Of a stretch of 64,000 bases of DNA, positions 10,053 to 38,545 are shown piece by piece; positions within the stretch are counted from its first letter, which is position 1, and every line of letters begins with the position of its first letter. The notes under the pieces are model-generated. The model was not told the DNA's origin, made no database searches, and worked only from the letters and a program-made list of their open reading frames with translations. The position numbers and the translations under genes are program-made. The stretch is from Paenibacillus sp. FSL H8-0537 (GTDB lineage: Bacteria; Bacillota; Bacilli; Paenibacillales; Paenibacillaceae): the NCBI RefSeq assembly GCF_038051995.1, contig NZ_CP150290.1, positions 5,198,001 through 5,262,000 on the forward strand, read 5' to 3'.

Positions 10053-10376
10053 CTACCCTAACCATAAAACGGTATCATCTGTTTTAAATGCTACAGGCAA
10101 TTCTTTAATAAGCAAATTAATCCTAGAGACCATATACTCTAAATCATTATTCTGAAGATTAGATTGAGCCCATACTCTCAACTTTTCTAGCTCCAGAAGT
10201 GTTGGCTCCAACTGCTCTTTTCTTAATTCTATTCCGTTCTGAATCCAAAAAATACCCAACTCCTCAATAGCAGGTTGCCAAAACTTTGTAAAGAATTCTT
10301 CACGGGATATTGGAATTTCAAAACCTAGTTCAAATGAATCATCCTCTTGATTCATTCTAAACACACTAACAGACAT
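10053..10376 (-). CDS. Probable immunity protein for Rhs copy 3
   Basis: 107 residues. Its ATG shares a base with the TAA of the rhs gene (TAATG), the tight coupling expected of a toxin and its antidote. The protein is helical and acidic (REEFFTKFWQPAIEELGIFW, then ELEKLRVWAQSNLQ), without a signal peptide, so it acts in the cytoplasm. It is unlike the immunity proteins of the other two rhs copies, as expected because each tip is different. No family is recognised. A good terminator follows. Confidence 0.8.
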   Translation of the reverse strand: MSVSVFRMNQEDDSFELGFEIPISREEFFTKFWQPAIEELGIFWIQNGIELRKEQLEPTLLELEKLRVWAQSNLQNNDLEYMVSRINLLIKELPVAFKTDDTVLWLG

Positions 10377-17762: not shown

Positions 17763-17837
17763 TGAAGATCCAAAAAAACATCTATGCAACTCTAGTGATT
17801 TGTAACACTAATTACTTATGGTGCGGTATAAGCTAAA

Positions 17838-17872
17838 CAAGCCGATTCCGGTTAGGTACCGAAGTCAGCTTG
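17838..17872 (-). terminator. Hairpin terminator, seam copy 3
   Basis: Minus strand CAAGCTGACTTCGGT pairs with ACCGGAATCGGCTTG around a four-base loop, followed by TTTAG. The U tract is short, so readthrough into Rhs copy 2 is possible. It closes the main rhs operon. Confidence 0.65.
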
Positions 17873-17951
17873 TTGGCTAGATGTATTATCAATACCCACT
17901 AAATGGGGAATTGAAAACTAATAAATGAAAGATTCCTACTTATTTTATTTG

Positions 17952-18401
17952 CTAGCTGTTATATGACTCCCATCGATTTTCACCTACAAGATTTAGAATA
18001 TTGCAAAATTCATAAACTTCTATCATTCTTTTTGTTATCAGATATCCGTCTTCCTCAATTTCTTCTGGGGTTAAATCAGTCTCCTTTAATGACCAATAAA
18101 TTATGGTATCAATATGAATTTCCAAATCTGTTATAAGTATACTCCTAATCTCATCCCACATCGTTTCTTCTTCCTTACATACTTGAAGTTCATCATCATA
18201 TGAAGCCACAATAATAGCCATAAGAGCATATTTTTCATCTATATTCCAATTAAATGACTTATAGCTTTGAATAAATTCTTGAAGCTTAGTATGATCTGCA
18301 ACTATATATTCCCAATCAATGTGATGAGTATCAGATAAATCAAATTTTTCAATAAGTTTAAGTCTTGCTTCAGGAGTGACTCCTATCGGATATTTATTCA
18401 T
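17952..18401 (-). CDS. Immunity protein of the full-length Rhs
   Basis: 149 residues from an ATG at 18401, four bases after the rhs stop, with AAAGGTGATTAA as ribosome site inside the rhs end. The protein is helical and acidic (ARLKLIEKFDLSDTHHIDWE, LITKRMIEVYEFCNILNLVG) and cytoplasmic. Its position as the next gene after the toxin tip marks it as the antidote. A frameshifted paralogue with a remnant of the same tip lies at 7208-7795, which supports that toxin tip and antidote travel together. No named family is recognised. Confidence 0.85.
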   Translation of the reverse strand: MNKYPIGVTPEARLKLIEKFDLSDTHHIDWEYIVADHTKLQEFIQSYKSFNWNIDEKYALMAIIVASYDDELQVCKEEETMWDEIRSILITDLEIHIDTIIYWSLKETDLTPEEIEEDGYLITKRMIEVYEFCNILNLVGENRWESYNS

Positions 18402-18405
18402 TTAA

Positions 18406-21400
18406 TCACCTTTCTGGTACTGTAGAATAATTACTATTGTAAGGATATGCACTGGCTATACTATTGTCATCTTTAACAACAATAATTGCTCTATCTGCAA
18501 CAACCCTTTCTCCTGTTTTCAAGAATGAGCTCCCCCCAACATTACTCGGTAATTCTACATCATATACTCCAGGTCCTTTTTTCGCGACTTCTGATATTAG
18601 CTTCGCTGCATCTTTTTGATTATTCCATCTTCCAATCTGAACCTTATCTTTAGCAGCCCTAGATTTTAATGCATCATCAGACATATGTGAGCCGTGTTTT
18701 GAGTAAGCATGTCTATAGGTAGGTAAACTATTAGGTTTATCCCAATTCCATTTTGAATATGAGTCAGGGAGTTTAATATTCCCCGTCCCCCCAGGTGTAC
18801 AACCATTCGTGTTTGTATTATGCACCCATATGCCGAGATCACTAACAAAGTAGGTATGGAAATCTTCTACTTCAAAATTATATACGGTTACCTCTTCCTT
18901 CAAACTAACAATCTCGATGTTATCAATTGTTAAAAGGTCCCCGCTACTATTCTGAAGTTGTTCTCCTGCTTCTAGATCTTCTGCAAGCACCCAGCCTTTA
19001 CCTACTATCCAAAATGGATGATTAAATGTTGTCTCGATGATTTGCCCATCTATAGAAAGTTTATAAATCACGTCTCGTTCATTACGGAACAGATTTAAAA
19101 CTTCCTTATACGTAATCTCTCCTGTCTCATCATTCTTTGAAAGAACCCTATCTCCGACTTCGATGTTTTCAATTGGCTTCTCTCCCTCGTCTGTCAACAC
19201 CTTTGTTCCTGCTGTAAAGCAATTGCAGCCAGCTACAATAGACCTCCCCGGCTTGAATTTTGCTCTCCCTTTAGATATCCCTAATCCCATTCCCGGCATA
19301 CTGGATTCCATAATTTCCATGGACATAACTGCGGACGCTGCTATAATTCCATGGTTTTCTATATCTGCGTACATTAACGCTTCCCTTGAGAAAAATGCCT
19401 CTATACCTTGCTTCAAGCCTTCTGTATTGTCTATTGTCTGCAAATAGGCCTGAAAATCTGCTTCTGTCGCTCCCTTATAAGTACTCATAAATACTTTTCT
19501 TAAATCATTTGTTTCTTGCTTCGATAAAGCTCCAGCTCCTCTTATCATGACTTCACCGGAATACATATCTGCCGCTAGTGCGCCTTCTCTTTTTGTGCCG
19601 TAGTAGGAATAATATTGATCATCACTCAACGTATAATGATCGTATATAAACTTGTTAAATGAACTATTTTCCCTCCGATTGATCAATAAAGCCAATGCTG
19701 CATTAGCTTCACTCATCACTGCTCCCAATTCGGCATATAAATTTTTGACAAAGAGCTCATCTTTTCCAGTCATTCCTTTGCCCGTCAATAAATTTATACT
19801 ATCTTTCTTATCTGTAGATAAATCTAGTACAGACACTTTGTTTCTTATTACTTGTGGTTTTTGACTTCCATATGTTTTCGTAATATAGACAGACGCTCCG
19901 ATTATTCCGTCTCCCACGAATGTTTTAACCGTAGCTGTGGTCGTTACTGGTCCGCCCGTTACAGAACTTACACTTTTCGTTGTGGTTTGTGTCATCCATT
20001 TATCGTATTGCTCATTATCAATGATAATTCTTCCATCTATCACGGAATATCCCTTGGCTATCTGATCGTCTTTGTTCTTCGTTTCTAATTGAATAGAGAT
20101 ACCTGTTGTCAATCTAACTGTCGTTATCCCTGTTTTGGAATCATAGGATATCTTCGTATCCGTCGCCTTCGCTATATCCCGTAAAGATACTGTTATCATT
20201 CCTGTTGGATCTAAATAAATCAACGGATTATTCAGCACATACGTATACCGATTCAGCGACAACGGCTCATTAGCTCGCCCTTTATACGTATCCTCAGATA
20301 TAAATCGCCCCACATACGGATCATAATAACGCGTCCGCAGGTAATACAAGCCTACTTCCGCATCGTAAAATTCTCCCGAGTAGCGAATCGTGCTTTCATA
20401 CAGCTCAATCGTCAGCGTTGGGCTACCGAATACATCGTAGTCATACTGATTCTCGATCGTTCCCTGCTCATCCACCGTCTGAACAACGTCCCCATGGCCG
20501 TTGAACAGGAAATACGACAGCTTGTCCGCCTGGTCGATTCGGGCGATATAGTTTATGCCCTTCACATAACGCACACTGACCGCGTCTGCTTTATCCGTCT
20601 CCAAAATCACGTATTGACGGTCATACAAGTAGTTCGTCACCTGCTCCGCGTAGCCGTCTGCCGAGCTGCGAACCGTTTTCTGTGTCCGAAGATCGTCTCC
20701 GTCATACGCGTATTCAACCGTCGAGCGTTCCCCGCCCTGCACATTGATCGCTTGCGTCAGACGGTTGAAGCCGTCAAAGGTGTTGTTCACCTTCTCCAGC
20801 AAGCTGCTTATTTCTTCGGTCTGCTCATCCCCGTAAGGATTCGCTCCCGTTACCTGGTTCATCCCTCGGCTATGCGGACGCAAATAGCTGGTTTGCTGAC
20901 GCACTTCATTCCCGTTGTTGTCGAATAGGGAAATGACCTTCTTCTCCAGCATCTCTTCGCCCGCTGCATCCTTCATCTGCTCTGTCAGCTGAAGCAGCTC
21001 GTTCGCATTCGAATACATATATTCGCTGCGCTTCACGATATATGTCAGCTCCGCTTTACTGATCGGATCGGTATAGCCTGTCGGCTGCTCCGACGTATAC
21101 GTCTCCAGCATCGACTCCCGATTGCCACTACGGTCATACGTGAAGACCGTCGTTTTGCCCGGGGCTTCCGCTTTTACGATACGGCCGACTTCATCATACC
21201 CGTAATTCGTCGCTCCGTAGCTGTCCGTTTTTGTCAGCTGATTGCCCGACAAGTCATACGTATAGCTGTATTCAGATAATACAGCACCGTCCGCCTTCGT
21301 ATTAACCAACTTCAGCAGCTGGCTATTGCGGTCGAAGGTGTAACTTTCCTTCACGCCACCCGCATAAGCGATGGATGTACGGTTCCCGTTCTCATCATAG

Positions 21401-24400
21401 CTATAGGATGTCGTCTTCCCTTGCGCCGTTACCGTACTCATTCGGCTCGATTTATCATACGTATAGCTGGTCATAAAGCCCGTTTTATCCTTCAGGCTCT
21501 TCACATTGCCTACCACATCATACGTATACGTGAGCTGGACTTTCCCATCCTTGGCGACTTCCAGCAAACGATTGTTTCCATCATGCACGTAGCTGCTTTG
21601 GCCGCTGCCATCAGTCATGGAAGCACGATTCTCGGCTTCATCATACGTATACTGAATCCGATCCTCAGTTTCAGCCACCGCTTTTTCGACCAGCAGTCCT
21701 CGATTGTCATAGCTATACCGTGTGTGGTTGCCATTGCGATCCGTCAGCTCTGCCGTTTGCAGCGCCAGATCGTAGCGGTAGGACATCGCTTGATTGTTCG
21801 AATTGATGACCTGCGTCACCAGACCAAATGCCCCATAGCGATAGCGGGTGACTTTCCCTCTGCCATCCGTCATATCTAGCTGGTTGCCGAGTAAATCGTA
21901 ACCATAGGTCACGCTGACGCCAAGCGGATCGGTTACGCTCAGCAAGCGTCCCGCTTGATCATAGGCATACGTATGGGTAGCCCCAAGCGCATTCGTTTCA
22001 GAGATTCGATCTCCTGCTGCATTGTATTGATACTTGTTGAATTTATTTTGCAATGCAGCTTCTGGCTCTGCCTGGGTAATTAGGCGATTCGCCAGATCAT
22101 AGCTGTACACCGTTCCATAGCGCTGTGCATCCGTCGCTGCCGATGCATAGCCTTTCGCATCCATGACTTTAATGAGATTGTCTGCTGCATCATAAACATT
22201 ACGAGTCACAATGATGTTGTACGGGTCTTTAACCGTCACCAGACGATTGAGCTTATCGTATGCATAGGTCATACGGTTCCCATTTGCATTCGCTTCGGCA
22301 ATTTTGTTGCCCGCCAAGTCATAGCTGAAGGTCGCCTTATGCCCTTCTCCATCTGTAACGGCCGCTACGCGGTTAAGCTCATCATAGGCGTATTTCGTCA
22401 CATAACCGCGCTCATTGGTTTCTTCCGCAACATTCCCATTTTCATCATACGTAAAAAGTTTGACCGCATCCTGTCCATTTACCTTGCGGCTCGTTTGAGC
22501 AAGGCGATTCATCGCATCATACGTATGGGTCGTCGTGTATTGGCTTCTGCCCGCTGTATCTGTTGCAGCATACATAAAGGCTCTCGGATCAATTTCCTTG
22601 ACCACATTGCCGAGCACATCATACACGTACCCTGTTATGATCTGCAGCTTACCCGGATTTTCCTGATCTTGCAGAAGCTCCGTATGAGCCGAGCTATCTA
22701 AATAAATATGCTCCGCATCCACCAGCTTCACGCTTTGCATCACTCTGTCCTGACTGTCGTACACAAAACGCTCCACATCATAAATCGATGTATCACGAAG
22801 CGTTGCCGTTTCCGTCACATTGCCGTTCTTATCGTATTCATGAATCGTCAATGCGCCGCTATTGTCCGATTCGCTTTTCAATAAATTATTCAGGTAATAG
22901 GCATAGGTTGTCTCGCGTAAAAAGGCTTCATCCTTCGAGCTGCTGAGGCTCTCTTTAATGAGATTGCCAGCCGCATCGTAAGCATAGCTTTCTACTGCGT
23001 ACACGAGATTGCCGCTGCTGTCTTGCTCCAACGGCGATTTCGTTTCAATCAGCTTCTTGTTGGCATCGTAGGCATATAGCGAAATGCTGCCGCGCTTATC
23101 TTTAAGCGATACGAGATTGCCAGCAAGATCATATTTAGACTCCGTGCGCTGAAGCAGCGCATCCGTCACCAGCTTCACTTGCCCAAAGGCATTATACGCT
23201 GTCGTCGTCTTATTGCCGAGCTGATTTGTCTCCGCAGTTACACGTCCCAGCTTGTCATATTCATAAGACGTCTCTCCGCCATCAGCATAGGTGATTGAGC
23301 GAACTAGACGATCAGGATAATAAGCATATTCCGTAATCATGCCACGAGCATCTGTTGATTTCGTCACATTTCCAAGCACATTGTAAACAAATATACTAGA
23401 ATGCTGCAGCGCATCCGTCTGCTTAATTAATTGACCAAGGCCATCATAAACGTAGCTCATGCCCATAGAAGCTTCTATATCTCCGGTATACTGCAAGCCA
23501 TCTACCGTTTTGATTATTCGACCGTTCACATCGTAGGCGATGTATTCCATCCCTTTGCCTTCTGGCGAGGTCGTAGTAGTAAGGCGATTCATCGCATCAT
23601 ACGTATACGATAATCCCTTTATGGACTTGACTGTGCCATCACGATCCAGAGAAGCCGTATACTGATTCGGCAAAATCTCTTTGATTACATTGCCGTTAGC
23701 GTCATAAATATAACGGGTAACGGCTTCCGTTCCATCCGCTGCCAGTTGTTTTGTACGAATGACGCGATCCAGCTCATCATAGTCATAGCGAGTAAGCAGA
23801 CCTAGCGGATTTTTTTCTTCAACTAAATTGCCTTTCTCATCATAGGTATAGGTGGTTGCTGCTCCAAGCGGATCGATTTGCTTAACGATGCGGTTATCCA
23901 AGTCGTAAGCCAGCTTGGTTACATAACCTTTCGGATCCGTCTGGCTCACGACATTGCCGGATTTATCATAGTCATAAACCGTTGTCGCCAGCACACGATC
24001 GTAGTAGGTATCATCTACCCCGGCATCCGCAAGCTCAGCCTGCACAAGCTCATCCATTTTCACCAATAACGACTCCGAAAGCTTACGGGATTGAACATCA
24101 TACGCATAACGCGTGATGTCATAGTCGCCGCTCGCTACCTTCGTCCGCTTCAGCGTAATATTGCCAGCCTCGTCATATTGCTGCAGCGTTTCTCGGCCAT
24201 TTGGTCCGCTAACGCTAAGCACACGCCCAGCTTTATCGTAGCTATTCGTGATTTTATCGCCAGCAGATGTCTTGGTTCCTTCTGCGCCTGACTTCGGCTG
24301 TTTATAGCTGAAGGTTTCACTGCTGAGCAGGCGATTCGCTTCATCATACTGATACTCCGTCAGCTTATACTGAGTTGAGGTCGAATTAGACGAGATGTAA

Positions 24401-27400
24401 GCTTGCTCAGCAATCAGATTGCTGCTGGAATCATAGCGATAATAAGAGGCTTGCCCCGCCTGATCCACCTTCTCGATTAATTCACCTTTAGCGGAATACG
24501 ACATGCGTTCCACGGTTCCATCCGGATGCTCCATCCGGTAAGGCTTCTCAAACACATTGTTCCTTACGGTCGTTACATTGCCGTTCTGATCCTTCTTGCT
24601 AACCAGCGTCTTGCCCGTAAGGTCATAGTTATAGCTTTCCTTGCTGCCATCCGGATAAGCCTTCTCCTTCAACAGCCCATTTAAATAATAGCTGTACGAC
24701 GTTTTGCGTCCCAAGGCATCCGTTTCCGAAATGACATTTCCCAAAGCATCATACACATATTGGTTGGTGTAATGAGCTGTGCCTTTGCTATCATTGTCCG
24801 CGCCAGTCTGCGCAGAAATGACAGCAATGACTCTATCATTGGCATCATATTGATAGGCCGTTCCATTCGATTTCGATGGATTTGCGGCTGTATAGCCTTC
24901 GCCTTTCCCTTCCTTATTGACGTTGCCACGCTCATCATATTGCTTGAACATCACGACCTCTTTGACTTTTCCGTCAAAGGAGCTGGCGGTTGTCATGCGG
25001 TTCAGCGCATCATATTCATAAAGCGTTCCTGGCGCATCTTCGAGAGCCAAGGCAGAATATCTGCCGTCGCTTTCTTTAATGACCTTGCCATTTGCATCAT
25101 AAGCATACCGGCTTCGATTGCCGAGAGCATCGCTCTTCGTTGCCATACGGCCAAGCCCATCATAAGTTATCGTTTGCGTAAGGTCGGTTCCTTGCACCGT
25201 TAGTGTTTCTGTTAAAAGCTGGCCAAGCTTGTCATAGCGATACACGGTACGTTTTCCATTGGCCTTGCCGCCGAAAGGCTCCGCCTTCTCGATGACCTGA
25301 TTGCGGTAATTATATGTAAACAATATCGTATCGTAGCCGTCTCCATTAAATACCTGCTGCTTAATAACATTGCCCGCAAGATCCCGGTCATACAGCATGC
25401 GGTAGCTTCCATGCTCTTCCGTCTTACTGCCATTTTTCTCTTTAAAAGTGCCTTCTTCCTTCGTCACCTGACCCGCAAAATTATAGGTGAACAGCTGCTG
25501 CTTAAAGCTGGTTTCAGCTGCATCCGTATAATACGTCCCGGTGAGCTTATTGCCGTTAAGATCATAGGCATACCGAACATGCGCCGTTCTCGAACCATCA
25601 AGCTTGGCGTATTCATCCGTCACCCGGTTCATCGCATCGTAGGTATAGCTTACATCGCTAGCTACGACACCCGCCGTTCCTATTAATTTGCCCATTCTTG
25701 TTCGAATCGGATTTCCCGCTGAATCATAGTTGTGACGAGTATACGTATAGTCCGCCTCACCCTTGGTATAAATACGCTGCTCCGCTACGCGTCCAAGAGC
25801 ATCATAAATAACCTCCGTAACCTTTTTCCCCGGATCTTGCTGGAGCTTTAATTGATCAAGCGCATTGTAGGCGTATGAAGTCTCATTGCCTAATGCATCC
25901 TTCTTCTCTATTAACCGCCCCATGTTGTCATAGCTGTACGCTGTCAAACCGTTTTTGCCATCGGTTTCACGCAGCAAATTGCCCATAAAATCATATTCAT
26001 AGCTTGTGGTATACACCTGCTTATGATCTGGCGTCGTCTCTACCTTAACTGGACGATTTAATAGATCATAATAGAACGTAGTGGAATAACCCTCTTCATT
26101 CGTCAAAACAACGACAAGCGGGGTATCGCTATTGCCTGTGTACTTATATTGAAGCGTCAACTCCCCTTTATTGACCTTATCCTGTTCATAAGAGGAACGT
26201 TTAGTCAGGAGGTAATTGCTATCATACTCCAGGCGGAAGCTATGGCCGTTCGCATCAACTTCCTTCGTTTTCAGTCCAAGAGCATCGTACTCATAAGCTT
26301 GTAAAACATGCCACTTTCCGCTGTCCTCCACAGCCGCTTTAAGCAAATTACCCATGATGTCATATTCATATTGGAATCGATTTTTATTCGGATCGGTATA
26401 TTGAATGCTTAAATTGGCGTAAGGGTTTTCGATATAACTGTACCCTTTTACACCCTTATCCGGCTCGGTCGTTTGCGTAACCCGTCCCAGCTTGTCATAG
26501 GTATAGCTTGTTTGCTCCTTATTAGGATTAACATCAAGCTTGCGGTTGCCCGTATTAAAGTCATACGCATACGATTTGGCTGCAACCTCGCCATCCGCGC
26601 TGCCAGACTGCTTGGTCACATAGGCACCCAACATGTCTATGCCGTTCGCATCCACACCATATTCAAACTGGGTGACGAAGCTTTGTCCACCAGCGCTTGA
26701 GGCCTGGCGCGTCATATTGCCGTAAGCGTCGTATTGATAGTCCGTCACAGTCCAGCTATCCTCTGACTGGGCATTCATCTTCGTTTCCCTTGTCACGTTT
26801 CCTTTCGAGTCGATGGCATACAGAATTTGGCTTACGGAATTTTTATCCTTCTTCCATGTCTTTGATGCCAAAACATGAAACTTGTCATAGGCATATGCAT
26901 AAACAACCAAATGATCATTGTTTACGGGATAGCCCTGACTATCTCGCTCTGCTTCCGGCCCCGTATAATTCGTTAGGTTGCCATATTCATCGTATCGATA
27001 GTTTTCGATGCGCTTTACAGGCGTTTCATTCGATTGACCATTCGTTGTCTGGTAAATCAGCGTTTCCTGCTTTTTCACCAGCTTCAGCTCGTCGCGCTCG
27101 CTCGATACGACCTCCTTATGATCCTTCCCGGTATTTTCGGTCAAAATCAGCTGATGCAAGCCATCAAAGGTATATTTCATTTTATTGCCGATTGCATCGG
27201 TCGTTTCCGTGTAATAGCGAAACTTATCCTTCAAATACGTATGGTCATTTGGGTTATAGTTATCGGTTTTGTAGCCGTCAGCCTCGTTCGTATAGCTGTA
27301 TACGGTTTTATTTTTTACCTCGGTGGTAAAACGATCCTCAAACTTGGCTTTGGATGCATCGTAATCCTTCTTGATCAGCTCGCGCTTCTCAAAAATTTTA

Positions 27401-28632: not shown

Positions 28633-28689
28633 CCTTGCACCTCCAAGAAGTTTAACTGCATTTGTGGATTGTTATGCTTGCGAAAACGA

Positions 28690-29541
28690 TTAATTGTATT
28701 TGTCTGTGTATGCTTTCGCCATAATCGCTTCATCAGAGGTTCCTGCTTTTTTCTTCGTTATGACAGACTCTGGCGTTAACCCAAGCTTCTGAGCTAGTAC
28801 AAAGGCTTCTGCTACCTGCTGCTCTGTAAACTTTCCTTTTTGAACATATTTACTCAGCTGCTCCTTCGTTATTTGCAGGCGCGGCAAGCTGAGTGAGCCA
28901 TTCAAAATATCAAGAGAGGCTGAAATCTCCTGCCAGCCTTTGTTTGCCTCAAGCTTTTCCTTCAATAGATCTTCCATCGCTGCCCCGGATACAAAAGAGA
29001 GCGTATCTGCAATCATAATGTCATCTGAGCTAAGCTTCGGATTGCTCATCCATTGCTCCAGCTCATCTCCCCCGAAAGCTCTGGGAACGAACGCTTTATG
29101 GCTGGAATGATACTGTTTCATGACGGTCTCCCAATCATTCCCCCTCGAGCGCTCTAAAGCTAGCTGCTCCAAATCTTGCATTTTTCCATAGTTTTGGTAT
29201 AAAAACTCGTAAGCAATAAGCAAATCAGGCAAGCTGCTGCCTGCTGCTGCCAGACGGTCAAGCTCCTTTTGGAATTTCTCATCCACTTGCAGCGTCTTCA
29301 CCATGCTTTCATAGTTAGCAAGGTTGCGAGCATAAGTGGCCCCATCCGCTTCTTTAATTTGATCCAATGCCGTTTGCGATAGCGACAGGGTTGCAGCATT
29401 TTGGAAGGTCTTATTGGTATTGACTGTCGTTTTCTGATCAGTCCATGCATTTTTCGCAAGCACGCTTCCAAGCTGCAGCACTGTGCCAAGTGCAAGTATG
29501 ACAACTAAGGATTTTGTCATTTTATTAAATTTATATTTCAT
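28690..29541 (-). CDS. Secreted helical protein of unknown function
   Basis: 283 residues from an ATG at 29541. Residues 1-29 form a signal peptide with a hydrophobic core (SLVVILALGTVLQLGSVLA), and cleavage after VLA is likely. The mature part is helical, with QITKEQLSKYVQKGKFTEQQ near the end, a pattern of short helical hairpins also seen in the next protein upstream. It lies 58 bases before the rhs gene and 14 bases after the 317-residue gene, so the three are surely cotranscribed. I do not recognise it. It may help export, fold or display the Rhs protein. Confidence 0.75.
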   Translation of the reverse strand: MKYKFNKMTKSLVVILALGTVLQLGSVLAKNAWTDQKTTVNTNKTFQNAATLSLSQTALDQIKEADGATYARNLANYESMVKTLQVDEKFQKELDRLAAAGSSLPDLLIAYEFLYQNYGKMQDLEQLALERSRGNDWETVMKQYHSSHKAFVPRAFGGDELEQWMSNPKLSSDDIMIADTLSFVSGAAMEDLLKEKLEANKGWQEISASLDILNGSLSLPRLQITKEQLSKYVQKGKFTEQQVAEAFVLAQKLGLTPESVITKKKAGTSDEAIMAKAYTDKYN

Positions 29542-29554
29542 CGGTAGTCCGCCT

Positions 29555-30508
29555 TTACGGTCGATTTGGGTTAATAGCCTCTAGTTCCTTCATGACATCA
29601 GCCGCTGGGTTGCCAGGCCTAATATCCTCTATAACCGGCAAAGGAACATCGGGTAAAATGTTGTCACCCTTGCTGTCTTTTACATCTATCGATGCTGTCG
29701 TTCCCTGCGTCGTTGTCGTCAAATGATCTTTTATACGCGTGTTGTTTTTCTGAATCTGCTCCAGCAGCGCAAGCTCAACACCAGACATTGTAATCATTTC
29801 ATGGGAAGGGCTGATCATCCGCTTCTCATCTCTTGCTTTTATATAAGCCTCTTGATCAGAAATATATAGGTTCAAATCCAATTCCAATTGCAAAGCCATT
29901 AAATATTCATCCAATACAGCTTCCGCGCTGCCTACTTTGCCTTCCAGCAAAAGCATGAAATACACAGCGTCGGCAACGTTGAATTGCTGAAGCAGCTTCT
30001 CATAGCGCTCCTGCTGGTCCTCCTCTTTCTTGTCTATGCTTGCCGTGGGAACCTCTACAGCAGGGGCAGGCTGATTGCCGCCCCCCAGCTCCTTCAGTTG
30101 AAATTGCAGTCGTTCTGCAAGCATTTTCGCCTCTAAAATAGCCTCATTCTGAAAGCCTTGTGCCTGAAGCTTGCTCGTCACTTCATCCATTCCTGACTCT
30201 GCGAGCAGCCCGCTGCGCTTGCTGCGGTCCTCGTCGTTTGCTGCAAGCTTGGTTGACTTCAACTGCTCAAGCACTTCATTCCAAGAAAGTCCCGTGTCTT
30301 TCAGCTTCATAATTTCCTCTGCCTTGACACCTGTCATATTGGAAATATCTGCGGCCATCATGCTGTCGCTCTTCATTTCAACGGCAGCTTCTTCTTTATT
30401 TGGATTGATTAAATTGTTATCTAGCAGCAATACAAAGGTTTCCGTGATTAAAGCGATGACAACAACAATCGCTACCCATTTGTAATGCTTTTTTAGAAAA
30501 TGCCTCAC
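29555..30508 (-). CDS. Membrane-anchored extracytoplasmic protein of unknown function
   Basis: 317 residues from an ATG at 30508 with a GGAG eight bases upstream. A basic start (HFLKKHYK) is followed by one membrane helix (WVAIVVVIALITETFVLLL) with no cleavage site, so the remaining 285 residues should lie outside. They include NMTGVKAEEIMKLKDTG followed by SWNEVLEQLK, a helical motif repeated in looser form in the secreted protein next door, and a proline-rich tail. A hexamer repeat lies directly upstream of its ribosome site. Function unknown; it could be a membrane dock for the exported proteins of this operon. Confidence 0.75.
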   Translation of the reverse strand: MRHFLKKHYKWVAIVVVIALITETFVLLLDNNLINPNKEEAAVEMKSDSMMAADISNMTGVKAEEIMKLKDTGLSWNEVLEQLKSTKLAANDEDRSKRSGLLAESGMDEVTSKLQAQGFQNEAILEAKMLAERLQFQLKELGGGNQPAPAVEVPTASIDKKEEDQQERYEKLLQQFNVADAVYFMLLLEGKVGSAEAVLDEYLMALQLELDLNLYISDQEAYIKARDEKRMISPSHEMITMSGVELALLEQIQKNNTRIKDHLTTTTQGTTASIDVKDSKGDNILPDVPLPVIEDIRPGNPAADVMKELEAINPNRP

Positions 30509-30520
30509 ATACTCAGCTCC

Positions 30521-30550
30521 ATTTCCATTTCCATTTCCATTTCCGTTTCC
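30521..30550 (-). repeat. GGAAAT hexamer repeat in front of an operon gene
   Basis: Minus strand carries one GGAAAC followed by four perfect GGAAAT units, placed between the stop of the fibronectin gene at 30553 and the ribosome site of the gene starting at 30508. Loss or gain of units would change the spacing between the two genes and the purine content near the ribosome site, but not a reading frame. Confidence 0.8.
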
Positions 30551-30552
30551 TG

Positions 30553-33500
30553 TTAAACCTTTACGTCAATCATCGTTTGACCTGTTATTTTAGATTTGAA
30601 GATGATCGTCGTCACTTCACCCGACCATGATGTGCCCGGCACAATGTTTTGGCTTTTCTTAAAGGTGATGCGTCCCGGTGTGTAAGTGCCCTCCAGATTG
30701 GAGCCTGCTATTTTACCGGACTGCGTGTCCAGCGCTGGCGTGAAATCATACAAATCCACGACCTCCAGCGCTGATGCATCATACGTAACGACATACGTTA
30801 ACTCACTGAAATCCTGCACATTGCTGCCCAGCAGCGACAAATCAAACGTCTTCCCTTTTACACCGTTGACGATATACGAAGGGCTCGTTGTGCTCTTCAC
30901 AATTGCCGGGCTCCATACCGTCACGCCTGCTTCATTCTTGGCGCGCACGCGGTACGTATGCGAGGTACCGGACTCCAAGCCTGTATCCGTATAGGTAGTT
31001 GATGTGCCCGTTGATGCTACGGTCTGGCCATCTACTTCAATGTCGTATCCGCTTGCTCCCTCTACCTGATCCCAGCGCAGCTCAATGCTGTTGTTATTCG
31101 CTATTGCATTTACTTCAATATTCCCTTGGAGGGAGTCAGGAAGGGTGGACAACGACAATACGGCGATCCAGTTCGCTGGTGCCCCTTGTTGTTTCAAGCG
31201 GATTTTGTACGTATGAAATTCATTCGCCCCGAGCCCTCCATGATGATAGATCGTGTCCAGCCCGTTATCGGTTAGAACGCCATCTACTTCCACCTCATAG
31301 TGCGCATCAAATGCCACCGTTTCCCATGATACAGTGATTGATCGATTCGTCACGACAGCCGCTACGTTCGTTAGGGCCAAATCCGATGCTTGTTGATTAG
31401 GTAAAGCGGTAAGGGTCACCTTGCTGCCCCATTCACTATGACCGCTTATGTTCACCGCCCGAACCCGGTAAGAATAGGCTTTATTGGATATTAGTCCTGT
31501 ATGTGCATATTGATTGGTTGTAACGTTCATTATCGTTGAACCGTCAATCTCAATCTCGTAGCTTTCCGCATGCGGTACTTTATACCAGGTCAGCGTGTTG
31601 CCGTCCGCTTCGGCTGTAGCGATGAGATTCGTAGGTATGGCAGGCTTTTCAGGATGCGTGACCGTTTCGAGCGGCTCGCTCCACGCGCTTTTGCCACCCG
31701 CGTTCGTCGCTCTTATGCGATACGTATGCGGACTTAGCGCCTCCAGCTCCTTATGAAGATAGCTCGTGCGATTGGCATTATCCAAAATCAAGCCGTCTAC
31801 CTCAATTTCATAACCTGTAGCTCCCGCAACGGGCTCCCAGCTCACGGCCATCTCATGTATCGCCGGCTCTGCTGATAAAGTGCCTGGCTTTTGTGGAGGA
31901 TAGGGCAGCGTTTGTGAGGTAATCAAGGCGCTCCATTCGCTGATCCCACCTATATTTTTTGCCCGTATCCGGTACGTATGCTGTGTTTCTGGTTCAAGTC
32001 CAGCATGTACATAGCGGAGCGCACTTCCTGCATCTAATACAACACCATCTACTTCAATGTCGTAGCTATCTGCTCTAGCGACGATTCCCCAAGTGATCGT
32101 CTGTTCCTTCTGGGATGGTGCAACCTCTATTTCCAGCGGAATCGTAGGCGGGTCTGGCAGTGTAAAGGCAGCGAGCAGCGGACTCCAGCTTCCCGCTCCA
32201 CTTCCATTTTTGACTCGTACCCGGTACGTATGTCTCGTATTTGGCGTGAGCGAGCTATGGAGATACGTGTTCGAAGCGCCATTGTTAATGACCACTCCAT
32301 CGACTTCAATCTCATATGTGACGGTGCCGCCAATTGCGGGCCATGAAATCCGCAAGTAACGCTGGGATGCTTCTGGCGTTAGCGTTGCTGGCGGGCTTGC
32401 CAAGGTTTCTCCGTTCCTTGTGCTGCTCCAAGCTGTTTCCTCTCCTAGTGCATTTTTAGCTTTTGCCTGGTACACGAGTGTTGTATTGGATGCTAATCCA
32501 ATAACTCGTATTTTCTTATTCGTCGGGGTAAACCATGCGGCCGTGCTGCTTAACCCTCCTGAACCATTCACATACTGAGCGCCAGCTTTTAACTGGTACT
32601 GTGTTCCGGTCGGATTTCCATCTTGAAATGTGACCTCAAGGCTGCTTTCATTGGCTTGTCCTAGTACGAAAGATGGGCTTTGCGCCTTTGTTTGAATGCT
32701 TTTCGTTTGTGATCCAATATGTCCTACTGCATCTCTCGCTTCAAATTTCACAGTGTAATTCGTATTTGGGATAAGGCTCGTCGCGGTATGCGTACCCGTC
32801 GCCAGCCAGTCCGTTGCACTTGTCCCTATTGTGAAACGATGTGGCAGAGCATGCAAGCCTGATATTGCATCCGTTGCTGTTCCCGTTACTTGGATAGTCG
32901 TATCCGTTGCTGTTGCCTGAAATACGCCAACTGCTGGAGCATTCTTGTCCACTTGAAAAGCTACCGTTTCCTGAATCGTTTGTGCCCCATCGTTCACTGT
33001 AAATTTCATCGTATGCGGGCCCTCACTCAATGATTGGACATTGAGCGCATTAAAGTTTACTTGCTGTGCTGTCGCTGTATTAGAAATGACTTTTGTATCT
33101 CTTGGTGTGCTCTCTGCATCTATAAAATAGGAAAGACTAAGATTACCGCTTGCTGAGCCCGTTACGCTTACTGTCGGAATCAAAGATTGCAAATCACTAA
33201 CCATTTGACCGGAAGTAGGTGTCAAAATGCTTTGCTTCATGGCCGTTTGAATCGTGAAAATAGGGCTATACGCATATTCTCCCCACATTCCGTTATCATT
33301 CGCCGATATTCTAACCATCGCTTGATTAGAGGGCCTGTATCTATTTAAATTTAATAAATATTCCCCTTCATGACTGACCTGCCAGGCTGGCACCGTTTCG
33401 ACATCATCCCACGAATATCCCCCATCTAGTGAGATTTCTATTTTCACCGTACTGGGGGTTATCGTTAACAAAGGTTGAACCTTCCATGTCAAAAGCATAG

Positions 33501-34035
33501 TTCCCTTATAAACCTCGTTATATCGAGGTCTACTTATTAATACAGGATCATTAGCTGGTTTATAGGTTTTATACACATGTATGGAGCCCATATTTTGTCC
33601 ATAGCATCCTACTTTTGTTATCTTGATATCCCTAGTAGCACCTCCAGGAACACCTTCTATATCCAAAAAAGGTTCGTTATAAAAACCTTTCAATATAGCA
33701 TATGAACCGCCAAATATTGCCGGGACGAAGCTTATTTCATATCCGCATCCTAATGGTAAATTGTTTTTATTGCTTGTAAATTCAAGTCTCGTATGATAAA
33801 CCCCGTACCGAGAATGATTAATATCAAAAATCAAGTTCTCTTTTCCATCCAAGTAGGAACCAGGGACGTTGGAAGAATAAAAATTCTGTTCTCCAAAATT
33901 ATGACTTGCCACATACGACCAGTTAGGGTTTTTAAGTCCATTATCCGGAGTAATGCTTGCTGCAAAAACACCAGCATTTTGCCCTATGAGCGTTACCAGG
34001 AAAAAATATAAGGTTAGTACTGTAATTTTTCTCAT
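30553..34035 (-). CDS. Secreted fibronectin type III repeat protein
   Basis: 1160 residues from the ATG at 34035, which has GGGGGA seven bases upstream; a GTG at 34050 is in frame but less likely. Residues 1-25 are a signal peptide ending in GVFA. An N-terminal domain (about 30-260) contains GGYSWDDVETVPAWQVSHEG. A region with Ig-like domains and then about six fibronectin III domains follows, each with the signature EIEVDGVV and HTYRVRAKN. The last 100 residues (LTYVVTYDASALEVVDLYDF, then GRITFKKSQ) resemble a cohesin-like beta domain. It has no sortase or SLH anchor. It is probably a surface adhesin or scaffold, cotranscribed with the PA14 protein 21 bases upstream. Confidence 0.85.
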   Translation of the reverse strand: MRKITVLTLYFFLVTLIGQNAGVFAASITPDNGLKNPNWSYVASHNFGEQNFYSSNVPGSYLDGKENLIFDINHSRYGVYHTRLEFTSNKNNLPLGCGYEISFVPAIFGGSYAILKGFYNEPFLDIEGVPGGATRDIKITKVGCYGQNMGSIHVYKTYKPANDPVLISRPRYNEVYKGTMLLTWKVQPLLTITPSTVKIEISLDGGYSWDDVETVPAWQVSHEGEYLLNLNRYRPSNQAMVRISANDNGMWGEYAYSPIFTIQTAMKQSILTPTSGQMVSDLQSLIPTVSVTGSASGNLSLSYFIDAESTPRDTKVISNTATAQQVNFNALNVQSLSEGPHTMKFTVNDGAQTIQETVAFQVDKNAPAVGVFQATATDTTIQVTGTATDAISGLHALPHRFTIGTSATDWLATGTHTATSLIPNTNYTVKFEARDAVGHIGSQTKSIQTKAQSPSFVLGQANESSLEVTFQDGNPTGTQYQLKAGAQYVNGSGGLSSTAAWFTPTNKKIRVIGLASNTTLVYQAKAKNALGEETAWSSTRNGETLASPPATLTPEASQRYLRISWPAIGGTVTYEIEVDGVVINNGASNTYLHSSLTPNTRHTYRVRVKNGSGAGSWSPLLAAFTLPDPPTIPLEIEVAPSQKEQTITWGIVARADSYDIEVDGVVLDAGSALRYVHAGLEPETQHTYRIRAKNIGGISEWSALITSQTLPYPPQKPGTLSAEPAIHEMAVSWEPVAGATGYEIEVDGLILDNANRTSYLHKELEALSPHTYRIRATNAGGKSAWSEPLETVTHPEKPAIPTNLIATAEADGNTLTWYKVPHAESYEIEIDGSTIMNVTTNQYAHTGLISNKAYSYRVRAVNISGHSEWGSKVTLTALPNQQASDLALTNVAAVVTNRSITVSWETVAFDAHYEVEVDGVLTDNGLDTIYHHGGLGANEFHTYKIRLKQQGAPANWIAVLSLSTLPDSLQGNIEVNAIANNNSIELRWDQVEGASGYDIEVDGQTVASTGTSTTYTDTGLESGTSHTYRVRAKNEAGVTVWSPAIVKSTTSPSYIVNGVKGKTFDLSLLGSNVQDFSELTYVVTYDASALEVVDLYDFTPALDTQSGKIAGSNLEGTYTPGRITFKKSQNIVPGTSWSGEVTTIIFKSKITGQTMIDVKV

Positions 34036-34055
34036 TGAACTGTCCCCCACATATG

Positions 34056-37000
34056 CTATTCCACAATATAAGTAATTTTTGAGTAGTCATTCGTTTTCGC
34101 TAGAAACTCAATGCTGTTCACTATCGTTTTGTCGGCATTAATAACCTCAAACACGATTTCTCCAGGCACGAATTTCCGCACCATCATATTGGTACCTTGA
34201 ATTAAACCAGTTCCCAGCTCTATTTCTGGCGTCATGCCACTAAGATCTAGAACCTCTACTTCAGAAGGCTGATAAGTTACTGTAATCGTTCTTTGTGTTA
34301 CACCCTGCTTCTTAGGAGCAGCAACAACTACATTGAACTTATTGTCTTTGCCTGGGTTAACAATAATTTCAGGTATTGTATTTTTCTCTACTTTTTCAGA
34401 CCATTCGCTAGAGCTGCTCCCCGAATGGGATCTAACCCGATAAACATGTCGTGTATTGGATTTCAGCCCCTGATGTACATAGCTGACCCCTGAAATACCT
34501 TCAATAAGTGTCCCATCAACTTCAAGATCATAGCTTGCCGCTCCTGTTACCGAAGTCCACTCGACGGTAATTTGATTTGTCTTTGCTACCGTAGAAATAA
34601 TTTCCGGTACCCCAGCTGAGCTTATAGCTGTAACCGCTTGACTCCATTCTCCTAGAGCGCTGCTCGATTTTGCTCTCACCCGGTACACATGCTTTGATCC
34701 CGGAGTAAGCTGTGAGTGTACGTATCGGGTCAAATTTCCGTTATCTACGACTCTTCCATCTACTTCAACGTCATAACCATTTGCACCGACAACACTTTCC
34801 CACTCTATGGAAATACTCGTGCTTGCCGAGAGAACTTTATGAATAACGGGAATACCCAGTCCCGTGCTTGCTCTAACCGTATCGCTCCAATCACCGGTCA
34901 AATCATTATTTTTCGCTCTTACGCGGTAAACATGGAGCGAATTAGGTGCCAGCCCTGCATGTGTATAGCTAGTCCCATTTGAAACCTCTACTAGCACGCC
35001 ATCAACAGCGATTTCATAGCTAGTAGCTCCACTGACACTATCCCAGGAAATCGTAATCGCATCATTTGTTGATGCCGCCTTCACATTTTGCACCTTGCCA
35101 AGTGATGTTGCTTGTGTAATGATCTCGCTCCAAGGGCCATTCCCCCCTGCATTTCTAGCTCTAATCCGGTAAGTATGCTCCGTAAACGGCAGCAAATCCT
35201 TATGAACATACGTTAAATTCAAGCCATTATTTACAATCAGCCCGTCCACTTCGATATCATAGCCAACTGCTCCAATTACTTGATCCCAGGTTACAGTAAT
35301 AGCTGTGCCCGTAGCTGTAGTGCGTATATTCGAAGGTACTCCCGAAAGTGTTGTACGTGTAATGGAATGGCTCCATTGTCCAATGATGCCATTATTTTTG
35401 GCGCGTACCCGGTACGTATGCTCGCCGCTCTGTTCTAAATTTGAGTGCAAATAACTTGTACTGAGGCCATTATCTACAACATTTCCATCCACCTCGATGT
35501 CGTAGCCAGTTGCCCCAGAAACCTCATCCCACTCTACTGATATACTGGAGGTGCCAGCTACTGCATGCAGATTTTTCGGGACGGAAGGCAATGTAGCCGC
35601 CGTAACTTTCTCGCTCCAATTACTTGCTCCATTGCTATTTTTCGAACGAATTCGGTACGTATGCGATGTGTTAGGCTCTAACTGGTCATGCAAATATTCC
35701 GTTCCCGTTATATTGCTTTTAACTGCGCCATCCACCTCAAGATCATAGAAGTCCGCACCAGAAATAGAATCCCAAGTAATATGAATAGACTTATCCGTTG
35801 CAGTTGTATTCAGTACACCAGAGGTTCCTGGAAGCGTAGATTTCACAAGTATCGGGCTCCATTGCCCCGGACCGCTTGTATTCACCGCTCTTATTCGGTA
35901 GGTTCGCTGGATGTTTGAACTCAGATTTTCTTCAAAATAACGATTCACGTTGCCAATGTTAACGACCGTATTGTAGGTTTCCACCTCATAGCCAGTAGCG
36001 CCTCTCACATTTTCCCAAGTCAAGGTTACGGAATCGCTTGTCGATTGCAGCTTAATATCCTCGGGTACGTCCGGCAAAGTCCAAACCTCCGATACAGAAG
36101 ACCATTCGCCCTTCAAATCGCCGCTCGTCGCTCTGACTCTGTAATAATGCACCGTGCCGGATGGCAGCGGTTCATGAATAAATTCATTATGAATGCCCAT
36201 TGGATAAATGCTGCCGTCTGTTTCAACCTCGTACCCATCTGCATTAAATGCAGTAGTCCAACCGACCTTCACCGCATTTTCAGTTGGAATTGTCTGAATG
36301 GCGGGAGTTGCAAACGGAGATAGCTGACTAGCTGGCACAACCTCTTTCACTCCAGAAGCGCTTTGCCATAATAAAATAGCCTTTGGCGAACCATTACGGC
36401 TAACATATTCCATTTGAATGTCAACCTTTTGACCAGCTTCTAGTGCAATAGAGCCAGTAAATAATTTATTTCCTTGCGCTGCCCACTCATCGATAATTAG
36501 AGTCCCATTCACATATAATTTGACTCCGCCATTAACATCAGCCTCAAACGTATAGTTCTCTGCATAATAAGGCTGGATTTGTCCGGTCCATCTGACAGAA
36601 AACCGTCCATCATTTAGGCCTGTTGAAGATACAGGAGCCTTGCCTTGCAATGCAGGCTGCTCTAGCACCGTCATTTTTTCACCATCCAAATTTTCCTCTG
36701 TAAAATATTCCGCCTTTAATCCTGCCGCCAAATATTTCAGCTTTGTTTCCCCTTCAGTACCAACTCCGATATTAATAATCGGTTTCTGATTAGCTGTAAT
36801 GCCGCCTCCGATGGCAACGATGCCTCCAGTCTCAATATTCAAGTGATTGTTAACATGCATATCGCCTTGAATAAATAAATCTCCACGTTTTACAGAAATA
36901 TTGGCTTGCTGATTATTGGAAACCAGACTGCCAACTACCATTTCCTCATCAATATTCATATTTACATTTGTATTAATATGAAGACTTCCAGGCACAATAA

Positions 37001-38174
37001 CTCTTCCCGCTTGTACATGAAGCAGGCCGCTATTATAAGTAAGGCTTCCAGCTATGAAATTATCCGCAATCGAGACGCTAGAATTATTATTCAAGTGCAA
37101 GGAACCTTTGACCCATAAATTCCCTCCCATTGTCCGAGTGGAATCATTCGGTTTTTTAATATCTATAGTCAGCTCGGTGTTCGCATTCATGCTTCCATTG
37201 ACGACCAAAGTTCCATAAACCGTAATGGACAGCTTATTGTTCGTATTAATCCCCTCTGCAATGACATAAACCGGTTTTGTAGGCGAGCCCAATGTCAATG
37301 AGGAATCTAAATTTAAATGGCCCACCGTTACAGCGACCATATCACTGCTGCTGTTATTGATTGCTGCCTCCAGACCTGAGGCACTGCAGTTATTGCAGGA
37401 GATAAATGACGGATTGGATGCCGCCAGACTGCTTTCGAGTGAAGCCATTTCTGCATTCATATACCGGCTAATTTCCGGATTCAAATCGCCTACCCGAATA
37501 AAGGGCAGCGCATTATGCTCATTATTTTGATTGCCAGAAATAATAATTTTATTGCCCTGCAGCTTGTTTTGCTCCGCTGGATTTCCAATTTGCGGCTTTG
37601 GAATCGTTTGAATAATAGGCTCTAGAGATTTAATCTCGATATACTGAATAGCGGTTGTATCTTCGCTGCTGCCTGCATGGAGCGTCAGTTTCCCGTCAGC
37701 AATGACAACCCCCTTATGGAAAGTCACTTGCCCGCCAGCTGGCAGCTCTGTATTCTCCCAAAAAGTGTTTCCCTCGACATTAAGCGTATTATTGCTTTCA
37801 TATACAGAGCTTCCGACACTGACCTTCACGTTATATCTGCCATTCGGCAGCTCAATCTCCCATTCGCCCCCTTCTTGCACTTGAATAGAAGAGTTTAGAA
37901 GCGGAGCATCGTAGGTGCTTCCCGTAACCGTAGACTGCGTATGATCCATATTCCAACCATAGAAGTATCCATTATGTGGACCATACTCATCCCCATGGTC
38001 GGCCAAATAGCCATCTGCTGCTAAAGCATCAGCTGCTTTAAACTGAATATTAACGCCTCGAAATGCCGTGGCAGCCTCCGTAGAATCGCTCCAGATCGAA
38101 GGCAAGAACAAATGAATGATTAATGACAAGCACAATACTCTTATTACACCTTGCTTAATCTGACTAAAATACAT
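34056..38174 (-). CDS. Secreted malectin-like/PA14/fibronectin III surface protein
   Basis: 1372 residues from the ATG at 38174, with AGAGGAGG nine bases upstream; the open frame extends upstream through the riboswitch platform and is not coding there. A signal peptide (VLCLSLIIHLFLPS) is followed by a malectin-like carbohydrate-binding domain (ADGYLADHGDEYG, NGYFYGWN). Next comes a repetitive beta-solenoid of GSLHLNNNSSV-type strands, then a PA14 domain (RWTGQIQPYYAENYTFEADV, VKLYVNGTLIIDEW). About nine fibronectin III repeats with EIEVDG and HTYRVRAKN signatures follow, and a cohesin-like end. It is probably a glycan-binding adhesin or matrix protein. It is the first gene after the cyclic di-GMP riboswitch. 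Confidence 0.88.
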   Translation of the reverse strand: MYFSQIKQGVIRVLCLSLIIHLFLPSIWSDSTEAATAFRGVNIQFKAADALAADGYLADHGDEYGPHNGYFYGWNMDHTQSTVTGSTYDAPLLNSSIQVQEGGEWEIELPNGRYNVKVSVGSSVYESNNTLNVEGNTFWENTELPAGGQVTFHKGVVIADGKLTLHAGSSEDTTAIQYIEIKSLEPIIQTIPKPQIGNPAEQNKLQGNKIIISGNQNNEHNALPFIRVGDLNPEISRYMNAEMASLESSLAASNPSFISCNNCSASGLEAAINNSSSDMVAVTVGHLNLDSSLTLGSPTKPVYVIAEGINTNNKLSITVYGTLVVNGSMNANTELTIDIKKPNDSTRTMGGNLWVKGSLHLNNNSSVSIADNFIAGSLTYNSGLLHVQAGRVIVPGSLHINTNVNMNIDEEMVVGSLVSNNQQANISVKRGDLFIQGDMHVNNHLNIETGGIVAIGGGITANQKPIINIGVGTEGETKLKYLAAGLKAEYFTEENLDGEKMTVLEQPALQGKAPVSSTGLNDGRFSVRWTGQIQPYYAENYTFEADVNGGVKLYVNGTLIIDEWAAQGNKLFTGSIALEAGQKVDIQMEYVSRNGSPKAILLWQSASGVKEVVPASQLSPFATPAIQTIPTENAVKVGWTTAFNADGYEVETDGSIYPMGIHNEFIHEPLPSGTVHYYRVRATSGDLKGEWSSVSEVWTLPDVPEDIKLQSTSDSVTLTWENVRGATGYEVETYNTVVNIGNVNRYFEENLSSNIQRTYRIRAVNTSGPGQWSPILVKSTLPGTSGVLNTTATDKSIHITWDSISGADFYDLEVDGAVKSNITGTEYLHDQLEPNTSHTYRIRSKNSNGASNWSEKVTAATLPSVPKNLHAVAGTSSISVEWDEVSGATGYDIEVDGNVVDNGLSTSYLHSNLEQSGEHTYRVRAKNNGIIGQWSHSITRTTLSGVPSNIRTTATGTAITVTWDQVIGAVGYDIEVDGLIVNNGLNLTYVHKDLLPFTEHTYRIRARNAGGNGPWSEIITQATSLGKVQNVKAASTNDAITISWDSVSGATSYEIAVDGVLVEVSNGTSYTHAGLAPNSLHVYRVRAKNNDLTGDWSDTVRASTGLGIPVIHKVLSASTSISIEWESVVGANGYDVEVDGRVVDNGNLTRYVHSQLTPGSKHVYRVRAKSSSALGEWSQAVTAISSAGVPEIISTVAKTNQITVEWTSVTGAASYDLEVDGTLIEGISGVSYVHQGLKSNTRHVYRVRSHSGSSSSEWSEKVEKNTIPEIIVNPGKDNKFNVVVAAPKKQGVTQRTITVTYQPSEVEVLDLSGMTPEIELGTGLIQGTNMMVRKFVPGEIVFEVINADKTIVNSIEFLAKTNDYSKITYIVE

Positions 38175-38195
38175 TTGAATATCCTCCTCTATTAA

Positions 38196-38226
38196 GAAAA
38201 ACGGCTGTCGCCACCCTCTGGCGGCA
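38196..38226 (-). terminator. Riboswitch expression-platform terminator
   Basis: Minus strand GCCGCCA and TGGCGAC pair with one mismatch around GAGGG and are followed by AGCCGTTTTTC. It stands between the aptamer and the ribosome site of the first gene. Its 3' arm and the GACAGCCG after it resemble the 3' arm of the aptamer, so a ligand-dependent choice between folds is plausible. Confidence 0.6.
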
Positions 38227-38250
38227 AATAAAAAAGACCCATTTACTTTT

Positions 38251-38340
38251 GGCGGCCCGGCTGTCATACGGCAACCATAATGATGGTTTTCCGTGAAGAC
38301 CCGTGGCTTTGCGTCCCTGTCTTTCGATCAGGTTTGCCTT
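38251..38340 (-). promoter_or_regulatory. Class I cyclic di-GMP riboswitch (GEMM-I)
   Basis: On the minus strand the conserved blocks of the GEMM-I aptamer occur in order: GGCAAACC (38338-38331), GAAA, GGGACGCAAAGCCACGGGTC, a second stem whose loop ends in ATGGTTGCCG, and a closing CAGCCGGGCC. The GCAAAG core and the tetraloop-receptor pair are intact. It binds cyclic di-GMP and controls the gene that follows. Here that gene begins an operon of adhesin-like proteins and an Rhs toxin. Whether the ligand turns expression on or off cannot be settled by eye. Confidence 0.93.
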
Positions 38341-38545
38341 TTTCAATTTCAATGGGCTTGTTGATTTTTAAACCAACCTTTGAAATAATAGTTCTTTGTA
38401 CTTAGTATATCGGTTGGATATTTGAAATTTTATACTACATAAGTCATAAAAATAAATATTTTTATTTATCTCCAGTTAATCCTATTTGAACTCACAATAA
38501 TCTTCCTTTTCATCTGTTATCTATATCCTAAGTCTTACTATCAAC
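38341..38545 (-). other. Intergenic leader and promoter region of the riboswitch operon
   Basis: No gene is seen. The AT-rich minus strand contains TATACT at about 38398-38403, a possible -10 element, but the -35 match (AAAATT-like) is weak. Transcription should start between here and the aptamer. Confidence 0.3.

Follow-up and report, generated by a model that had tools for sequence, protein, structure and literature searches.

A predicted cyclic di-GMP riboswitch heads a conserved Rhs toxin operon in Paenibacillaceae and probably switches it off

A class I cyclic di-GMP (GEMM-I) aptamer was located on the minus strand of a 64,000-nt stretch of the Paenibacillus sp. FSL H8-0537 genome (hereafter the window), at the head of a gene set that ends in an Rhs toxin gene and its candidate immunity gene (Table 1), and the link between riboswitch and toxin operon is real, conserved and specific. 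The best explanation as a whole, which we hold to be probable, is a terminating OFF riboswitch over a toxin operon, namely that a class I cyclic di-GMP riboswitch would control, by transcription termination, one operon that encodes a pair of giant surface proteins with fn3 domains, a pair of mutually related helical proteins anchored in the membrane, an Rhs toxin of ~3,400 residues and an immunity protein. The aptamer is predicted to be the loop of its own terminator: with cyclic di-GMP bound, helix P1 would be locked, and the outer helix P0 would zip up against a U tract and make RNA polymerase stop; at low cyclic di-GMP, P0 would close poorly over the ~100-nt loop and the operon would be read. 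The helper proteins may export or display the Rhs toxin.

Table 1. Features of the riboswitch-headed operon and its surroundings, in window positions
Feature	Position	Strand	Basis
SigD-like promoter match TAAA-N14-ACCGATAT (tentative)	38407..38432	-	pattern search in own genome
P0 5′ strand GCCCAUU, extends P1	38351..38357	-	fold, alignment, duplex, pair counts
c-di-GMP-I (GEMM-I) aptamer	38247..38347	-	RF03167 66.6 bits; RF01051 71.6 bits
P0 3′ strand AAUGGGU (38243-38237), then C, U6 tract (38235-38230): predicted terminator	38230..38243	-	
Gene 1: exported protein of 1372 aa, PA14 and fn3 domains	34056..38174	-	Pfam; ATG, spacing
Gene 2: exported protein, fn3 domains	30553..34035	-	Pfam
Gene 3 (p317): 317 aa, N-terminal hydrophobic helix, helical, no family found	29555..30508	-	
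Gene 4 (p283): 283 aa, N-terminal hydrophobic helix, helical-repeat fold, related to p317 by profile	28690..29541	-	
Gene 5: Rhs protein of 3408 aa, RHS repeats and PT-HINT module, C-terminal tail without family	18406..28632	-	
Gene 6: candidate immunity gene by position, 149 aa, no family above cut-off	17952..18401	-	
Hairpin 3′ of candidate immunity gene, possible operon terminator	17836..17875 (approximate ends)	-	
Orphan Rhs C-terminal cassette, PT-HINT, different tail	13758..17789	-	Pfam; 89% DNA identity to rhs over 3406 nt
Candidate immunity ORF of first orphan cassette	13228-13758		
Second orphan Rhs C-terminal cassette	10376..12892	-	ORFs, DNA identity
Candidate immunity ORF overlapping second orphan cassette	10053-10376		

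Scanning the window with cmscan returned a single RNA at the gathering level, assigned to RF03167 (c-di-GMP-I-GGC; 38347-38247, minus strand, 66.6 bits against a cut-off of 59, E 1.5e-13), with one same-clan match of lower score omitted from the output. A whole-genome search with RF01051 scored the same site at 71.6 bits against a cut-off of 35, one of six matches in the genome (7.0 Mb, single contig); the GEMM-I aptamer read on the minus strand by the first-pass annotation was thereby confirmed. At a variant position, the window carries A (GACGC-A-AAGCC) in place of the G of the RF03167 consensus; we take this A to be the canonical cyclic di-GMP contact, and A occupies the second variant position of that model in the window and in all 15 aligned leaders, despite the window's score above the RF03167 cut-off. 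Identity with RF03167, whose ‘GGC’ presumably denotes three contact residues, was rejected on account of this A. All 15 aligned leaders also agree in GGCAAAC, in GACGCAAAG and in the C that follows the P3 3′ strand, and the invariant G, A and C are presumed to be ligand contacts. This RNA is predicted to bind cyclic di-GMP; the 20 GGDEF domains found above cut-off in the genome bear on this only indirectly. That it is a variant RNA, responding to a different cyclic dinucleotide or no longer to any ligand, seems very unlikely: the Rfam family listed for the window is indeed the variant RF03167, but the RF01051 score, the invariance of the presumed contacts and the conservation over six genera, which argues for function, all speak against it. 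Bc1 of B. thuringiensis is reported to bind cyclic di-GMP, yet its downstream genes are unresponsive (PMC11218506), a precedent on the side of such a variant.

The aptamer lies 72 nt before gene 1, and the predicted terminator helix with its U tract makes up an expression platform in the 5′ leader. Taking ATG as the start codon of genes 1 and 2, the intergenic gaps that follow are 20, 44, 13, 57 and 4 nt, at most one base off the 21, 45, 14, 58 and 4 given at first pass, and the terminator hairpin then noticed in the leader corresponds to the predicted helix 38357-38351/38243-38237 with its C and U6. Upstream, a terminator-like 16-pair hairpin (38585-38550) sets an Aldolase_II gene apart from the operon; at the other end, an 81-nt piece around the closing hairpin (17875-17836) folds at −29 kcal/mol (z −4.65). 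A consensus scan for terminators on the minus strand gave none in the gaps between genes and seven candidates within the operon genes (stems of 5-7 pairs), and the 21 candidates in 28000-39000, both strands pooled, exceed the 9.9 of the shuffles (sd 3.2). An absence of internal terminators, as noted at first pass, therefore cannot be claimed. As for the promoter, the SigD-like match before the aptamer is common to the window and only G002 among 21 leaders; the pattern had been picked after reading the window, and a SigD promoter was dropped as a claim, as the pattern has 33 matches in the genome versus 27 for its reversed control, i.e. no enrichment. In its favour, another SigD-like match immediately precedes the aptamer at 4825273, upstream of a gene that reads as a chemotaxis receptor.

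The conservation of this arrangement was followed through p283, the gene before rhs. At genus level 3 of 51 genomes contain it and at family level 19 of 394, the latter spread over 6 of the 19 genera drawn. All 19 were searched with RF01051, and 16 had enough upstream contig, those of G058, G296 and G349 ending too early. In 15 of the 16 testable genomes an aptamer was found at the operon head, on the same strand and about 8.5-9.4 kb upstream of p283, and in G113 it is the only one in the genome; with ~6 aptamers per 7 Mb, we calculate that any one operon would have an aptamer on its own strand in the preceding 500 nt with a chance of about 2 in 10,000. In the remaining genome, G320, the initial part of gene 1 shows no homology and an aptamer is lacking there, and in Cohnella fermenti (G058) gene 1 lies on another contig, with an aptamer, and was not counted as an operon. 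The gene order fn3PA14, fn3B, p317, p283, Rhs is kept in the 18 other p283 genomes as far as the contigs reach, and the flanking ORFs, compared only with the window's proteins, vary between genera (the family maps display ORFs below 150 aa, and the named-locus maps those below 130 aa, only with a blastp match).

A p283 alignment, applied to named genomes through two peptide patterns, yielded 22 loci, 11 of them new and 11 on contigs that match those of the family set in length and were counted once; the window's operon proteins are 93-95% identical to those of Paenibacillus algorifonticola XJ259 (L126). The gene order was kept in nine of the 11 new loci (L134 has two fn3B genes), the others being L146, with no recognisable fn3 genes, and L147, which starts inside a diverged fn3 gene. 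Nine new loci had a readable head (all except L135 and L147), of which five carry an aptamer, i.e. those of P. solanacearum, P. allorhizosphaerae, P. mesophilus, a Bacillaceae MAG (50.7 bits) and a Clostridiaceae MAG (81.1 bits); none was found at the heads in two Clostridiaceae MAGs, a Ruminiclostridium MAG and Clostridium cibarium. L142 was scored as lacking it, with 90 bases upstream in the locus and no match in its whole genome. When the readable heads were pooled, an aptamer was present at 18 of 19 in Paenibacillaceae, 1 of 1 in Bacillaceae and 1 of 5 in Clostridia. The aptamer at the head of an Rhs toxin operon, as first observed, is not a peculiarity of this genome but recurs in many related bacteria. 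Its absence in G320 and in four of the five clostridial operons was counted against the best explanation.

The association also distinguishes between Rhs proteins. Matches to the first 350 Rhs residues occur in 74 of 388 family genomes and fall into two distinct groups, one of 18 loci with 59-100% identity, each in a p283 genome (the nineteenth, G296, does not appear among them), and another with at most 41% identity, the shorter loci of which we take to be WapA-type. Ten loci of the latter group reside in p283 genomes, and none of these ten has an aptamer within 300 kb on its own contig, some of the contigs being short draft pieces. The N-terminal region of the window's Rhs protein does not group with the shorter Rhs loci of this bacterial family.

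Conceivably, the riboswitch is limited to the first surface-protein genes, and rhs with the immunity gene follows its own promoter, inside gene 4 or in the 57-nt gap, leaving cyclic di-GMP little effect on the toxin. Gene 4 does contain promoter-like matches (29134-29107), as do other parts of the minus strand, but they are no commoner than in shuffles (20 versus 21.3 and 24 versus 21.5); moreover, the gap before rhs is short in every family map (25-69 nt), and the five-gene unit keeps the aptamer at its head even where the neighbouring genes differ, which makes a separate rhs promoter rather improbable. Spacing and conservation suggest co-transcription from the leader through rhs.

The expression platform is predicted to be built around helix P0, which prolongs P1, encloses the whole aptamer and ends at a run of U6-U9, with cognate duplexes formed in 15 of 15 leaders; it also appears in the RNAalifold consensus of the leaders. 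In the alignment, 88% of the P0 cells are paired and seven double-sided changes were counted versus 2.1 in shuffles (1 of 500 shuffles reached as many), and every measure drops when the partners are slid by 1 to 3 columns. A permutation test was performed with 12 representatives, one per sequence group and of our own choice, drawn from 19 leaders, four of which lie beyond the aligned 15; 78 of 200,000 permutations, uncorrected for relatedness, pair as well as the cognates do, following 414 of 40,320 in an earlier test with eight representatives. Counting against P0, the cognate strand is the best partner in 5 of the 12 representatives and ranks eighth in G061. The minimum-energy fold pairs the bases before the U tract with bases 5′ of the core in 13 of 15 leaders (G287 in another register), and those of G055 and G061 lack P0; in the window, P0 is present in the best fold of 38372-38226 and absent from that of 38394-38180, which has 22 nt more upstream and 46 more downstream. 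The folds without P0 slightly lower the odds of the best explanation. No conserved antiterminator was found across the leaders, and an upstream hairpin that would sequester the P0 5′ strand was rejected in this role (mean pairing 0.41 versus 0.46 in shuffles, 19 leaders). The nested design is absent from two of the named loci: L132 has no U tract seen beside its aptamer, and the Clostridiaceae aptamer of L145 is followed by a separate hairpin, so its switch differs.

Since P0 continues P1, which ligand binding stabilises, and by prediction uses no nucleotide of the aptamer core, an OFF logic follows: the ligand-bound RNA and a terminator whose stem prolongs P1 of the aptamer itself can coexist. 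Ligand binding should build the terminator, and cyclic di-GMP should hence turn the operon OFF and link the toxin to motile cells, in which the signal is low; provided that the switch works, we regard this direction, predicted from the folds, as quite likely. High cyclic di-GMP is usually the sessile signal, and the coupling of toxin display to the sessile state that was proposed at first pass is probably wrong, as high cyclic di-GMP should shut the operon. It would be right for an ON switch, in which, without ligand, the 3′ strands of P3 and P0 form a local hairpin at the U tract that terminates, and cyclic di-GMP keeps P3 within the aptamer and allows read-through, with toxin production in sessile cells. 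Such a hairpin is predicted at −7.6 or −7.7 kcal/mol in 8 of 15 leaders and at −4.9 to −6.1 in five more; yet it reaches only −2.0 kcal/mol in G040 and G207, falls short of the U tract in G055, and in six of the eight leaders where it is strong has two bases between stem and U tract. Furthermore, P0 would terminate even with the aptamer folded, and the covariation resides in P0, not in the local hairpin, so that an ON switch appears unlikely. As described in PMC9262584, other GEMM-I switches such as pilM are ON, and aptamer and terminator are mutually exclusive in pilM, whereas in the OFF switch Cd1 of Clostridioides difficile the two can coexist.

The Rhs protein resembles polymorphic toxins: it carries 19 stretches of RHS repeats (PF05593, Pfam) and a PT-HINT pretoxin processing module (PF07591, E 1.5e-30), its N-terminus reads as a signal peptide, its C-terminal tail has no assigned family, and a small gene follows 4 nt downstream. 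In the mapped relatives, homology ends before the tail. The toxin tail and the candidate immunity protein matched no NCBIfam family and none over the Pfam cut-off. The nearest solved relatives of the protein are Rhs cores, followed by teneurin-like proteins (two solved chains matched). Downstream of the operon, both orphan cassettes resemble portions of rhs, at 82-92% DNA identity.

Among the partners, Pfam recognised PA14 and fn3 domains in gene 1 and fn3 domains in gene 2, and the cohesin-like tails guessed from reading both were discarded, as no PDB sequence matched below E 0.1. Genes 3 and 4 matched no family and are constant members of the operon; their products are mutually related (hhalign probability 95.6% over 85 columns). 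The structure model of p283 is good (mean pLDDT 83.6) and gave no Foldseek match in the PDB at E 0.001, the only match of its profile being a designed helical barrel (E 5e-7), and the model of p317 is poor (pTM 0.45). As they constantly accompany this Rhs subfamily, genes 3 and 4 are suggested to export, anchor or present the Rhs protein.

If true, the proposed mechanism would connect the main lifestyle signal of bacteria to a contact toxin directly through RNA in Gram-positive bacteria, without a regulator protein, and an aptamer nested as the loop of its terminator would be a simple OFF design. To our knowledge, how Gram-positive bacteria present Rhs toxins is poorly understood, and the conserved operon points to four candidate helper genes. 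Going further, we tentatively propose, with rather more doubt than confidence, a hitherto undescribed Gram-positive toxin-display system, in which the long Rhs subfamily with fn3 and helical partners as apparatus and a nested-terminator OFF switch would form a weapon worn by motile or dispersing cells and put away in the biofilm. Among the papers listed in open-access literature searches, titles and abstract starts gave no Rhs or WapA toxin under a riboswitch, in line with the remark in the first-pass annotation that no such case was known to it, and no paper in the open-access collection searched contains ‘GEMM’, ‘Rhs’ and ‘riboswitch’ together as whole words.

Among known switches, Cd1 acts on flagellar genes, whereas a toxin operon would be the target here. 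According to PMC9262584, Cd1 belongs to the same aptamer class and its aptamer and terminator can coexist, as is predicted here, but its terminator is separate and downstream of the aptamer, whereas that of the window has a stem that encloses the aptamer; a Cd1-type separate downstream hairpin with an antiterminator was not encountered in the window's leader. With the Gram-positive Rhs/WapA toxins the operon shares RHS repeats, PT-HINT, an apparently variable tail, an adjacent small gene and orphan cassettes; it differs in that its long subfamily (at least 59% identity over the first 350 residues, versus at most 41% for WapA-like loci) always comes with four conserved exported partners. Bacterial teneurin-like proteins likewise have a YD-shell, variable toxin tails and immunity genes, and the window's Rhs protein matches two solved teneurin-like chains, but its best solved matches are Rhs cores; the accessible text of PMC13018210 describes no four-gene partner set, and its main text does not contain the word ‘riboswitch’. 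The nearest functional precedent is TfoY of Vibrio, which, according to PMC6618264 (where a conflicting study is also cited), is made at low cyclic di-GMP and induces the T6SS. In both cases, a low level of cyclic di-GMP would pair a contact weapon with motility; TfoY does so indirectly, as a regulator protein (PMC6618264), whereas the window's riboswitch would act on the toxin operon itself. Each part is of a known kind; the novelty lies in how the parts are combined, in partner genes that are always present and in a terminator that encloses the aptamer.

The window aptamer was assigned by cmscan to the variant family RF03167, and despite this listing it carries the canonical A; more bits were given to it by RF01051 in the genome search than by RF03167 in cmscan. 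The genes behind the other aptamers of the same genome, named by reading, comprise two putative chemotaxis receptors, an exopolysaccharide gene cluster, which is preceded by tandem aptamers, and surface-protein genes. A helix like P0, which extends P1 and encloses the aptamer, may also form in the leader at 5642155 (predicted at -6.5 kcal/mol), with a U tract nearby.

Aptamers, operon variants and features downstream of the toxin gene
Feature	Location	Strand	Remark
Window aptamer	window 38347-38247
Other aptamers of the window's genome	L074-L077: 2588566, 5642155, 256752, 4825273
Clostridiaceae MAG aptamer	L145:1157-1290
G320 operon	L131:2100-5513
fn3B pair, P. mesophilus	L134:2101-8885
Two orphan Rhs cassettes	window 1-13758		downstream of toxin gene
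Row of small ORFs, immunity-gene-like	window 1-13758	minus	downstream of toxin gene

Among relatives, the same operon in a Clostridiaceae MAG (L145) carries an 81.1-bit aptamer, and the hairpin downstream of it, with a U8 tract, is a different one; therefore, there may have been more than one occasion on which the link between aptamer and operon arose or was rebuilt. The sole Paenibacillaceae operon without an aptamer is that of genome G320, in which the first third of gene 1 is different; the ORF preceding this gene resembles, by reading, a response regulator. As for other variants, reading of the P. algorifonticola leader (L069) revealed a partial, degenerate second aptamer upstream of the intact one and an insertion downstream of it, and the P. 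mesophilus operon contains two fn3B genes.

The motif TGTC[GA]AA was present within 170 nt upstream of the aptamer in 14 of 35 loci of the genus (L001-L035), against an expectation of about 2% per locus, calculated by arithmetic rather than from shuffles and for loci that are related; many of the motif-bearing loci precede genes reading as chemotaxis receptors. Among the 21 leaders of Rhs operons, it was found in those of genomes G040, G055 and G061, in locus L149 and in the Clostridiaceae MAG. We take TGTC[GA]AA to be similar to the Spo0A box.
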